64,000 bases of DNA. It comes from Deltaproteobacteria bacterium. GTDB lineage: Bacteria; Myxococcota_C; UBA6777. Shown here piece after piece: positions 22,489-28,488 of this stretch (position 1 is the stretch's first letter; each line of letters opens with the position of its first letter). The notes under the pieces were generated by a model, which was not told the origin of the DNA, made no database searches, and worked only from the letters and a program-made list of their open reading frames with translations. The stretch spans positions 1-64,000 of the forward strand of contig PCBK01000094.1 of assembly GCA_002731275.1 (NCBI GenBank). Reading direction: 5' to 3'. Position numbers and translations under genes: made by a program.

Positions 22489-23589
22489 TCAGGTAGGTTC
22501 GATAAGAATGCGCAATTGGTGCAATCCGATCAAAAATGCTTCCTCCACCTCGATCTCTTGTTCATCGTACAAACGCTGAAGTGTCTCTTGCACAGTCTCT
22601 TCCGCTGAGAAGGCCTGGATCAGGTCTTCGACCTCTTTGGGCAACAGCACGGGATCATACCGGCTATACGCAACAAACAGAGATAACTCGTCGTTCATTT
22701 GTTGAATGGTGAGTTCGGGATGGGGGATGAGGAATTGTGGGAGTGTGGGGGATGTCACCTTGTTGTAAAGGTGAGCGAGCTGTGGGAGTGTTTCATCCAA
22801 CTCCTCTTGCATGATATTGTCGAAGTCCTGCTTTGTCAAGGCACACGCAGCGTCGTAACACGCGCGGTAAAACGCTTCCTCTTTACCAGCCCACTCTCCC
22901 CATATCTTCGAATACTCATCGTCAGGCATCGGGCGCTCTTCGAGTACGTGGATGGCGAGCCTCGTCACCTTCTTCTTTTTCCCCTCAAGCGCCCATGAGA
23001 ACGAAGGACATACACTCTTCGCGAGATGGTATGAGAGTTTGGTTTCGAGTGTCCACATCCAGGTCTGCATCCTCTTCCACAATGTTCTCCCATCCTCGCC
23101 CGCTTCGTGTTTACAGAAAAAGAATGAGCAGTCGGAGTCGCGGAATTTCCAGATGGAGCAATTGTTTTGTGGTGTTTGAAAGAAAGGACAGAGTAGCTGT
23201 GATGAGCGACCAAAGCTCGACTGTTGCGACGCCTGTAACAACAGTAGCTGTTTATTCGAGGGCCTCACCCATTGTGGATGGACACCGATGCGAAGTGCGA
23301 TGTAGTCCTTCACCCTGCGCTGGCCTTCGGCAAACAGAGGGCGCTCGTCACTGAGTAGCCCGCCAATCAAGTAGTTGGGGATAGATGGTTGGAAGGTACA
23401 GCACTTGAGATCGGGTTGGAAAAACCCTTGCCTGTCGGCCTGTTCTTTGGACAACTGTGCGCCCTCGGGCAAACACATCGCGCAGCTGTCACAGGTCGCT
23501 TTGCGTTCGGGGATCGCAGGTCTCCAGAACACCTCGGGTAACCATTGGCGGTAGATCTCGGGCAACATATCGAGCACAACTTCGGACAT
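22489..23589 (-). CDS. Cysteine-cluster protein (YkgJ-like), function unknown
   Basis: A 366-aa soluble protein with a cysteine cluster in the first 70 residues (CDSCAMC, then LKCCTFQPSIPNYLIGGLL) and further Cys in QLLCPFF, NNCSIW and DCSFFFCKHE. This pattern is typical of proteins that coordinate zinc or an iron-sulfur centre and resembles the YkgJ cysteine-cluster group, but the match is weak. The C-terminal half is acidic and helical. GGAGGA precedes the ATG at 23589; an in-frame ATG at 23676 has a poorer site. It lies upstream of the TPR gene on the same strand. The function is unknown. Confidence 0.6.
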   Translation of the reverse strand: MSEVVLDMLPEIYRQWLPEVFWRPAIPERKATCDSCAMCLPEGAQLSKEQADRQGFFQPDLKCCTFQPSIPNYLIGGLLSDERPLFAEGQRRVKDYIALRIGVHPQWVRPSNKQLLLLQASQQSSFGRSSQLLCPFFQTPQNNCSIWKFRDSDCSFFFCKHEAGEDGRTLWKRMQTWMWTLETKLSYHLAKSVCPSFSWALEGKKKKVTRLAIHVLEERPMPDDEYSKIWGEWAGKEEAFYRACYDAACALTKQDFDNIMQEELDETLPQLAHLYNKVTSPTLPQFLIPHPELTIQQMNDELSLFVAYSRYDPVLLPKEVEDLIQAFSAEETVQETLQRLYDEQEIEVEEAFLIGLHQLRILIEPT

Positions 23590-23731
23590 ACCATCCTCCA
23601 CTTTGTAGGGTACAACACGTATCGATTGTGGGATGCTCCAAAAAAACTGTAACATGATATGTTGAACGGCAGACATTTTCCAGGTGAGGTCGTCGCAGGA
23701 AACAACACATCAAACGAAAGGTTTTAGTCCG

Positions 23732-25444: not shown

Positions 25445-26377
25445 TCACTTTACATTCAAAATCATTTGTTTGATGGCGTCGTAGACATTCTGGTCTGAGA
25501 GATTGGTATCGACAGTCCCACCATATGGCAGGTAGTGGACCAATTTACCTTGGGAGTCGTAGATGTAGAAGTCATCTTTGCCACCAAAGTGTTGCTTCCA
25601 CGCCTGTACATCGCTGCGATCTTGGAGGAGCGGGAATGAGCAGCGATCAGTGAGTTGTTTTTGATCGGACGCAGAGTTTGCGGAGACGTCATTGACGACG
25701 ACAAATTTTACCTTTGCTTTTTGGAGCTGAAGTTCGACGCGCATTTTTTCGAGAAGCCCAGCCTGGGCTTGACAGAAACTTCACCAACCGGACAAAAAGA
25801 CAAGGACCGTCACATATCCAACGAATGCCTTGAGGTTGTATGTCTTTTTGTATCCACAGCTCTTTGGTTGAAAGTCCTCAAGCAGCCAGTTCGGCGCTGT
25901 ACTACCAGGACATTGTGAGGGTCTGTACTTGCACAGCTCCTCAGGTGGAAACTCCGTGACCACGTTCTCAGGTGGTCCAGAGGCGACGACATCAGGATAG
26001 GGACCTTTGACGCCGACACATGGAGAGGTCGAACCACCATCGCTGACATCTGCGATCAGCTCCGTGCCTGCATCTGCGAGGTCATCGACAGGATTGGGTT
26101 CTTCAGGTTTGGGTTCTTTTGTGGGCTCAACGGCCACTTCTTTGGTGCCTTGTTCTTTTGCAGGCTCCTTACCAACAGGAGCTTCGCTGACTTGTTCTTT
26201 GAGCTGTTCGGAGCTGACCTCCGTCTGAACGCTCTCGGCGCCAGGCTCAGTTTGGGTCCCCTCGGCCTTCTTGGTGGTCGAACAACCTTCAAAGGAGAAG
26301 ACGACGAGGAGGAACAATCCAAGCAAAAGAAACACACCAAAGGACAGTGGACGACGACGATTGTCTTGCTTTGTCAT
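25445..26377 (-). CDS. Predicted selenoprotein: UxxC thioredoxin-like lipoprotein
   Basis: One gene of 311 codons containing an in-frame TGA (25781-25783). The protein is a lipoprotein (lipobox FEGC) with an acidic Glu/Pro/Lys linker (TKEPKPEEPNP) and a C-terminal redoxin domain. The TGA falls at residue 199 in LSGW-U-SFCQAQAG, exactly where thioredoxin-like proteins have the first Cys of CxxC, with Cys202 as the second. The reading frame stays open with good redoxin sequence for 112 more codons (VKFVVVNDVSANS, FYIYDSQGKLVHYLPYGG). A SECIS-like hairpin follows the TGA (25754-25770). GGAG precedes the ATG at 26377. The alternative is a nonsense mutation splitting the gene. Confidence 0.8.
25754..25770 (-). 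promoter_or_regulatory. Bacterial SECIS-like hairpin
   Basis: On the mRNA strand AAGCCCAGGCTGGGCTT forms a 7-bp stem with a GGC loop, beginning 10 nt after the UGA. Bacterial SECIS elements sit about 10-11 nt after UGA and carry a G at the start of a small apical loop, and both are met here. It would recruit SelB with Sec-tRNA. Confidence 0.65.
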
Positions 26378-26437: not shown

Positions 26438-27730
26438 TCACATCAAACCGAACAATTTGGGAAGCCAGAGGGAGATGCCGGGGATGTACGTGACGAGCAA
26501 CAAGACCACAAAGAGCACGACATACATCGGGATGAGATAACGAATCACGCGATTCATAGGGACATCTGCGACACTACAGCCGATAAACAGTGCGCTCCCA
26601 ACAGGTGGCGTACAGATCCCAATACACAGGTTAAATACCATGATCATACCAAAGTGTACGGGGTCGATACCGATTTTCTTCATGATGGGCAAGAAGATCG
26701 GCGTAAAGATCAACACAGCCGGCGTCAAATCCATAAACGTGCCAATCACCAACAAGAAGATGTTGACGAAGAGCAAGACGAGCAGCGGCTGGTCCGAGAA
26801 TTGCCCCAACACAGACGACACGAAGGCCGGGACATTTGCGCTGGCCATCACCCAGGACATCCCCATCGAGGTGCCCACCAGAAACAACACGATGCAGGTC
26901 GTGATGGCCGACTCGCGAAAGATCGAGGGGAGCTGAGAGAAGGTGATCTCCTTGTACAAAAGCGCGAGCACGAGACTGTAAATGACGGCGATCGCAGAAG
27001 CCTCTGTCGCCGTAAAGATCCCACCAACAATCCCACCTATCACGACGACAATCAGCGCGAGTGAAGGGAGCGCCGCGACGATCTTCTGTGTGCTCCCTTC
27101 GCGGACAGAGGTGCCTTTGATGCCAAGACGTGATGCGAGCCAAATGGTCGGGAGCATCAACCCAACACCCATCAACAACCCCGGAAGATACCCCGCGACA
27201 AACAAGGCCGCGACAGACGTCCCGCCACTGACCAGAGAGTACAAGATTAAGACACCAGAGGGTGGGATCAACAAGCCTGACGGACACGAAGCGATATTCA
27301 CAGAGGCCGCAAATGCGGGGTCATACCCCTCCTCTTTTTGGATCGGCGCCATGATCCCACCGACCGCCGCAGCCGCAGAGACAGCCGAACCTGAGATCGC
27401 CCCAAACAACATATTCGCGAAGATATTGATATGAGACAACGAGCCCGGCAACCAGCCGACAAAGACATTCGCGAAGTCGACCAACCTCTTGGCGATCCCC
27501 CCGCGATTCATGATGTTGCCGGCCAGGATAAAGAATGGGACGGCGAGCAGACCAAAACTGTTGAGCCCTGTCATCGCCTTTTGCGCGATGATATCGGCCG
27601 AGGTCGCCATCGAAAAATTGACCGTAAGAGCCGCGAAGGTCGCCAGTCCAATCGAGAAGGAGATCGGCACACCCAACGCCAAAAAGACGAAGAAGACCAA
27701 AAAGAGCGTCATGATGACAGTCGTATCCAT
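26438..27730 (-). CDS. dctM: TRAP transporter large permease DctM
   Basis: The 430-aa large membrane subunit of a tripartite ATP-independent periplasmic transporter, with about twelve membrane segments. Family hallmarks include the N-terminal GVPISFSIGLA, the NIMNRGGIAKRLV segment, and GVLILYSLVSGGTSVAALFVAG. It uses a sodium or proton gradient to import a substrate, often a dicarboxylate or sugar acid, delivered by a DctP binding protein. GGAGGG lies before the ATG at 27730. It starts one base after the dctQ stop. No dctP gene is in the window, so the substrate cannot be inferred. Confidence 0.93.
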   Translation of the reverse strand: MDTTVIMTLFLVFFVFLALGVPISFSIGLATFAALTVNFSMATSADIIAQKAMTGLNSFGLLAVPFFILAGNIMNRGGIAKRLVDFANVFVGWLPGSLSHINIFANMLFGAISGSAVSAAAAVGGIMAPIQKEEGYDPAFAASVNIASCPSGLLIPPSGVLILYSLVSGGTSVAALFVAGYLPGLLMGVGLMLPTIWLASRLGIKGTSVREGSTQKIVAALPSLALIVVVIGGIVGGIFTATEASAIAVIYSLVLALLYKEITFSQLPSIFRESAITTCIVLFLVGTSMGMSWVMASANVPAFVSSVLGQFSDQPLLVLLFVNIFLLVIGTFMDLTPAVLIFTPIFLPIMKKIGIDPVHFGMIMVFNLCIGICTPPVGSALFIGCSVADVPMNRVIRYLIPMYVVLFVVLLLVTYIPGISLWLPKLFGLM

Positions 27731-27731
27731 C

Positions 27732-28211
27732 TCAACCCTCCTGTGGTGTCAAAAAGAACTGCAGCGAAAACAAAGAGAAGCACACACCGCCGACAGGAAC
27801 GACCAGATATACGATCCCCATCGAGATCCCAAGTGCGGGTGTCTTTTGTGACAATCGAAAGGCATTTTGCACGAGATGTAGGCCACCAAAGGTCAACAAC
27901 ACGCCAAAGAATGTCGTACACAGGTAGATCAACTTCTCAAGCCGCGCGCGCATCGTGTCGGAGAGCTGTTGGTGTACGATATCGATCGCGATGTGCTTCT
28001 TCTCGGCCCATGTGAGCGCACTACCAAGTACACCTAACCACATCAATAACAACCGACCGAGTTCTTCTGTCACGGTGCTCGGGCTGTTCAAGATGTAACG
28101 CGAAATCACCTGCCACGTAATCACCAACAACAGGACAAAAAAGATCGACGGCACGAGGATATCCAAAAACTTCTTTGCGCCGGAAAAGACACGCTGCAAC
28201 ACACTCTCCAT
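27732..28211 (-). CDS. dctQ: TRAP transporter small permease DctQ
   Basis: A 159-aa small membrane subunit with four membrane segments. ITWQVISRYILNSPSTVTEE is the conserved DctQ segment, followed by LLLMWLGVLGSALTWAEKKH. It partners with DctM. GGAG lies six bases before the ATG at 28211, and dctM begins one base after its stop, indicating translational coupling. The upstream region, 28212-28806, has no binding-protein gene, which is unusual because dctP normally begins these operons. Confidence 0.9.
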   Translation of the reverse strand: MESVLQRVFSGAKKFLDILVPSIFFVLLLVITWQVISRYILNSPSTVTEELGRLLLMWLGVLGSALTWAEKKHIAIDIVHQQLSDTMRARLEKLIYLCTTFFGVLLTFGGLHLVQNAFRLSQKTPALGISMGIVYLVVPVGGVCFSLFSLQFFLTPQEG

Positions 28212-28488
28212 CACACACTCCTTTGGAGCTTATAAGGCCAGTCCAAGGACGAACAACAGGTGGAAACGCCTCAACACGATTTGATGTAAGCCTGGAGTGT
28301 AGAAGGCTCTCTGCGATTTGGCAACTCCACCCTCTCACAAAGCATCCTCACTGCTGCGAAAAAAACGCAAGGCAAACGGCTTCATAGAGACGAGGTGTCA
28401 ACTATTTTGACGACAGGGAATAGGATCTTGGGTGTGCTTGTTTCGATCTGGTGAACAGGTTGATCCCGTTGTGAAGACAGCGGGTAGG

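Follow-up and report, generated by a model that had tools for sequence, protein, structure and literature searches.

The window, as the whole stretch of 64,000 nucleotides analysed here is called, holds at 25445-26377 a reading frame with one internal TGA, and the question raised by this locus is whether that codon ends a gene or is read as selenocysteine (Sec). A sequence-only reading had proposed a probable new selenoprotein, a lipid-anchored thioredoxin, at these coordinates, which were correct; the gene lies on the minus strand, a point that had been left unstated. On the sequence comparisons described below, the locus is very probably one gene (26377..25445, minus strand) for a lipid-anchored, exported thioredoxin-fold selenoprotein of a SelP_N-related family.

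Reading frame and homologues

Translation with TGA as Sec gave a frame of 310 residues with a single internal TGA in the context LSGW-U-SFCQAQAG, in agreement with the earlier placing of the codon where the first Cys of a CxxC motif would stand (GW-U-SFC). The frame was also open after this TGA as claimed, but 111 sense codons were counted before the stop and not 112. Ordinary ORF calling split the gene, as had been expected, into two pieces of 198 aa (26377..25781) and 99 aa (25744..25445). The features of the locus are listed in Table 1.

Table 1. Features of the selenoprotein locus and its upstream neighbours, in window coordinates.
Feature	Position	Strand	Basis
Complete selenoprotein gene (310 residues, TGA199 as selenocysteine)	26377..25445	minus	Translation with TGA=U; same layout in L022
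Start codon ATG	26377..26375	minus	
Signal peptide and putative lipobox (FEG-C, Cys32)	26377..26282	minus	Sequence; lipobox-like N-termini in 27/34 members; processing presumed
E/P/T/K-rich linker, lipid anchor to redox domain	26281..25934	minus	Translation
SelP_N-like thioredoxin-fold domain	25933..25448	minus	Pfam SelP_N E 1.1e-14; AlphaFold2 model, DsbE/ResA/TlpA fold
Sec codon TGA, codon 199, U of GW-U-SF-C	25783..25781	minus	Homologues at this column: TGA 26/34, Cys 8/34
Cys202, second (probably resolving) residue of UxxC	25774..25772	minus	Invariant 34/34
SECIS hairpin AAGCCCA-GGC-UGGGCUU	25770..25754	minus	Within published criteria; conserved with compensatory changes
Third cysteine Cys246 (RCSFP), possible extra resolving role	25642..25640	minus	Cys in 16/26 Sec and 6/8 Cys members
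K-D-D signature at usual cis-proline place	25579..25571	minus	K and first D 34/34, second D 33/34
Terminal TGA stop	25447..25445	minus	
DctQ and DctM (TRAP transporter), upstream neighbours	28214..26438	minus	Pfam DctM, DctQ; gap ~60 nt

A set of 34 related domains from Myxococcota and from the window's small phylum, the latter sampled by five genomes (G000-G004), was aligned. The column of TGA199 held Cys in eight of the 34, the replacement for which the sequence-only reading had advised looking, and TGA in the window copy, in its orthologue L022 and in 24 further homologues. L022 comes from another genus (genome G003), has TGA at the same codon (LLSGWUSFCQAQAG) in an open frame, and is identical to the window protein at 52% of positions overall and 64% over the domain; the two formed their own stand-alone branch with support of 100/99. 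The second copy in G003, L024, is a Cys paralogue (LAAWCGFCQAQ). Among the named genomes scanned, three MAGs (Myxococcales, Polyangiaceae, and an uncultured proteobacterium) contained a relative with TGA at this codon, and when 377 genomes of the Polyangiaceae MAG's phylum were searched with a profile, about 39 of those listed had matches of at least 120 bits. This comparison across relatives establishes, at the level of sequence, the unity of the gene and the recoding of its internal codon, and insertion of Sec at TGA199 is near certain. Many related redoxins were observed in the Myxococcota genomes G062, G154, and G204, with up to eight matches per genome, several of them with one in-frame TGA.

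When the Cys/Sec state was placed on the tree, a minimum of five changes was required, at least two of which were forced by well-supported branches, so Sec and Cys appear to have been exchanged more than once. Within the window's phylum, G001, G002, and G004 (three genomes out of five) gave no SelP_N match, although tRNA-Sec was found in two of them, so the gene is dispensable.

The N-terminus of the window protein consists of RRR, a hydrophobic stretch, and Cys32, and its FEG-C departs from the lipobox consensus (F-E at -3/-2). Under a loose pattern, a lipobox-like start was found in 27 of the 34 members. The earlier remark that an exported Sec protein would be unusual is thereby weakened, as export looks like the rule in this family.

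The SECIS hairpin and the selenocysteine machinery

The 17-nt SECIS-like hairpin with a GGC loop, reported by the sequence-only reading 10 nt after the TGA, was borne out; it has a 7-bp stem, a distance of 17 nt from TGA to loop, and an energy of -8.7 kcal/mol for the bare stem. The published model of bacterial SECIS elements has a loop of 3-9 nt, a stem of 4-16 bp, a G among the first two loop nucleotides, a UGA-to-loop spacing of 16-37 nt, and an energy of -7.5 kcal/mol or below (PMC13188914), and the window hairpin lies within all of these limits. Compared with 500 synonymous recodings of the window gene alone, the hairpin had a chance probability of p = 0.008. The 91-nt stretch folded whole was not unusual against shuffles (z -0.58), a comparison that was uninformative, and the local hairpin test was used instead. 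Taken singly, the window sequence is only moderate evidence for a SECIS element.

The comparative evidence, drawn from aligned sequences, is decisive. A hairpin of SECIS type follows the TGA in 26/26 TGA members. In 23 of these the core is CCCAGG(C/T)TGGG, with the loop starting 17 nt after the TGA, and in the remaining three (L028, L044, and L053) the TGA-to-loop spacing is 21-25 nt. Of the 26 Sec genes, 17 passed the threshold of -7.5 kcal/mol for the bare stem, where 0.9 would be expected if synonymous codons were drawn at random, and the remaining nine form this hairpin too, but with a stem too weak to pass. At the same threshold, a qualifying hairpin was found in none of the eight Cys genes. 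The combined p over the Sec genes is about 1e-25, a value overstated because the sequences are related, and the contrast between Sec and Cys members is the better control.

In addition, the outer pairs of the stem covary, with 14 double-changed cells against 5.3 in shuffles and none of 500 shuffles as high, and this signal disappeared when the stem partners were slid by 1-3 positions. Sec members show almost no variation in the codons CAG GCT GGG, which cover the loop and the 3' stem. In Cys members the GCT and GGG positions vary even at the amino-acid level, so retention of A-G behind the active site seems to serve the RNA, at least in part.

The window's genome (G000; 10.75 Mb in 200 contigs) was searched for the Sec machinery, the first check set by the sequence-only reading, and by sequence comparison all of it was found: selA (550 bits, over the curated cut-off), selB (380 bits), selD (365 bits), and selC as one tRNA-Sec (71.5 bits, anticodon TCA). 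The selD gene has its own in-frame TGA in CAGUAAKLG (L018:1501-2427), a known Sec position of that enzyme, so G000 encodes at least one further selenoprotein. The tRNA-Sec was not found in G060, the draft MAG that carries the homologue L027. In the mechanism proposed for G000, the hairpin that starts 10 nt past UGA199 would be recognised by SelB and tRNA-Sec, and selenocysteine would be inserted with no stop.

Family, fold, and probable function

Among Pfam families, SelP_N (PF04592) ranked first for the window protein (E 3.5e-14), with AhpC-TSA and Redoxin behind it; it scored 53.2 bits for the whole protein and 54.8 for the domain against a curated cut-off of 23.2 bits. All 34 domains matched SelP_N, and when the C-terminal half without the active site was searched, SelP_N was the sole Pfam match in each of the five members tested. 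Elsewhere the match was rare, being found, among 386 genomes mostly across Bacteria, in two genomes of the window's phylum and in one weak TlpA-like protein. By sequence comparison, which also defines the family, its closest described relative is the N-terminal half of animal selenoprotein P, and the relation is specific; it had gone unseen in the sequence-only reading.

The nearest NCBIfam model, NF053656 (redoxin_TUGYCR), gave the window protein 71.6-74.3 bits against a cut-off of 100. True members in Myxococcota score 113-222 bits and the window family about 60-83, the upper figure being derived from the best E-value. Membership in NF053656 was rejected because of the score below the cut-off and the gap to true members, and in these comparisons the TUGYCR proteins are a separate sister family. 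The TUGYCR family (L077-L088, near 1500-1960) has a hairpin-like sequence of its own downstream of the TGA (GTAGCCAGTTTGGCTAC), a codon retained in nearly all its members.

No curated NCBIfam model covers the window family at its cut-off, and none of the 119 families in a 2026 catalogue of prokaryotic selenoproteins stands under SelP_N/PF04592 (PMC13188914). A literature search found no paper that joins selenoprotein P with myxobacteria, or selenoprotein with Myxococcota and selenocysteine, and none that uses the motif name TUGYCR. The word 'new' in the sequence-only reading needs narrowing, as seleno-redoxins are known and a sister family, NF053656, is already curated. The novelty lies in the bacterial family itself and in its being related specifically to selenoprotein P.

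A thioredoxin fold is predicted for the window protein by a confident AlphaFold2 model made from four sequences (pLDDT 84, pTM 0.83), and the solved folds nearest to this model in Foldseek were DsbE, ResA, TlpA, and CcmG. Against solved structures, phmmer with the window protein alone gave nothing useful, and among the 60 profile matches listed there was no selenoprotein P chain. Positions invariant in 34/34 members include, in domain numbering, U/C51, C54, Q57, N81, Q104, K119, D120, G129, G139, and Y151. K119-D120-D121 aligned with L-P-N of the plain TlpA-like protein L068, a single comparator, and by this alignment an Asp stands at the expected cis-proline place in all 34.

The product is most likely a lipid-anchored periplasmic seleno-redoxin that would act as a thiol-disulfide or peroxide reductase. 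The mature protein would hang from a membrane by Cys32 and the long flexible linker, the Sec199 selenolate would attack a disulfide or a peroxide, and Cys202 would resolve the product as a selenenyl-sulfide, which a partner protein would reduce again. The fold and the UxxC motif lean towards thiol-disulfide exchange, though with the cis-proline missing, disulfide exchange of the plain thioredoxin type is not assured.

The same selenoprotein may instead serve mainly in peroxide reduction, a serious alternative that is quite conceivable. This would fit the invariant K-D replacing the cis-Pro region, the rank of AhpC-TSA and Redoxin as the next Pfam families, and a weak GSHPx similarity in one member, whereas the UxxC motif, the DsbE/ResA/TlpA folds nearest to the model, and the absence of a TxxU or UxxT peroxidase motif speak against it.

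The gene neighbourhood offers a further reading of the function. A gene for a fusion of dihaem cytochrome c and rhodanese, a lipoprotein, adjoins 17 of the 34 genes of the family, Sec and Cys forms alike, in most cases as the next gene downstream, and its product is likely a functional partner in Myxococcota; fusions with a YCACPHAES-type motif lie at L024:2002-3132, L027:5564-6619, L028:4988-6604, and L029:2315-3442. The selenoprotein could accordingly be placed in one electron chain with this protein, for example in periplasmic turnover of sulfur or selenium compounds, but this is unlikely, as no full-length counterpart was found in the window's genome, and in G003 the intact, single-copy gene lies beside the Cys paralogue and not the Sec orthologue. 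Such a chain cannot be the role of the window copy without another partner. The TRAP transporter genes next to the window gene are not conserved beside the orthologue, which has a different neighbour in G003, and their adjacency is probably incidental. Since the transporter is unconserved and the cytochrome/rhodanese gene is absent from the genome, neither was used to assign a function to the seleno-redoxin. A scan for promoters and terminators gave sites no more frequent than chance, and a phage family search gave no match. The window also contains, at 22489-23676 on the minus strand, a 395-aa ORF with CxxC-like cysteines and no Pfam match.

A decaying Cys redoxin gene with a premature TGA, or a sequencing error, would also leave one internal stop in a family with Cys homologues, among them the sister-genome paralogue L024. 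Such an origin is highly improbable and is refuted by the conservation of the codon: TGA stands at the same place in 26 genes of many genomes whose frames are otherwise open, L022 included, with none of the further disruption named earlier as the mark of a pseudogene, and the TGA is accompanied by a covarying hairpin absent from Cys members. Reassignment of TGA to a sense codon throughout the genome would likewise account for the in-frame TGA, but its probability is negligible and it is refuted: the window gene itself ends at TGA, and the internal TGA is conserved, stands opposite Cys in related proteins, and goes together with a SECIS hairpin.

Significance and comparison with known systems

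The reading of the locus as a single selenoprotein gene extends the known selenoproteins by a well-supported family whose genes ordinary annotation cuts in two. The animal selenium carrier gains a bacterial relative open to expression and assay, and the catalytic role of the SelP N-domain thereby becomes approachable without the Sec-rich tail. It is possible, as a tentative reading of the sequences, that the animal SelP N-domain arose from the presumed lipid-anchored Sec-redoxin family described here, which occurs in Myxococcota and a small phylum close to them, or that the domain and this family have their closest known bacterial ancestor in common. On the same tentative reading, the function as a selenium carrier would be a later addition that came with the Sec-rich tail. 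The repeated exchange of Sec and Cys within one family is also a clean natural experiment on the protein cost of a bacterial SECIS element, because the Cys members are without the hairpin and are less constrained at the A-G that follows the active site.

Among bacterial proteins, the UxxC selenoproteins already catalogued comprise a Prx-like thiol:disulfide oxidoreductase, redoxin-family, and TlpA-like proteins, placed under PF00578, PF08534, or cd02966 (PMC13188914). These redoxins resemble the window family in being bacterial and of thioredoxin fold, and they differ from it in this listing, with some overlap possible. The TUGYCR proteins (NF053656) are also Myxococcota seleno-redoxins of thioredoxin fold, with Sec at the corresponding site and a hairpin-like repeat downstream, but they have YRDVVVLD where the window family has KDDFYIYD, and they give no SelP_N match. 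TlpA, ResA, and DsbE (CcmG) share with the window family the predicted fold (Foldseek E 7e-10) and the place of the active site, and are membrane-anchored, periplasmic proteins; the window family differs in Sec for the first Cys, in the invariant Asp at the cis-proline position, and in an identity of only about 20%.

Animal selenoprotein P (SELENOP, PF04592) is a secreted protein with a UxxC-type Sec site and resembles the window protein in these respects and in the SelP_N match, which includes the half without the active site. The Sec-rich C-terminal tail of selenoprotein P proper is absent from the window protein, which has a single internal TGA and no C-terminal extension, and nothing in the window family points to a role in selenium transport. 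Compared with its animal relative, the window protein would be a bacterial lipoprotein that contains a single Sec and whose SECIS element, of the bacterial type, lies inside the coding region.
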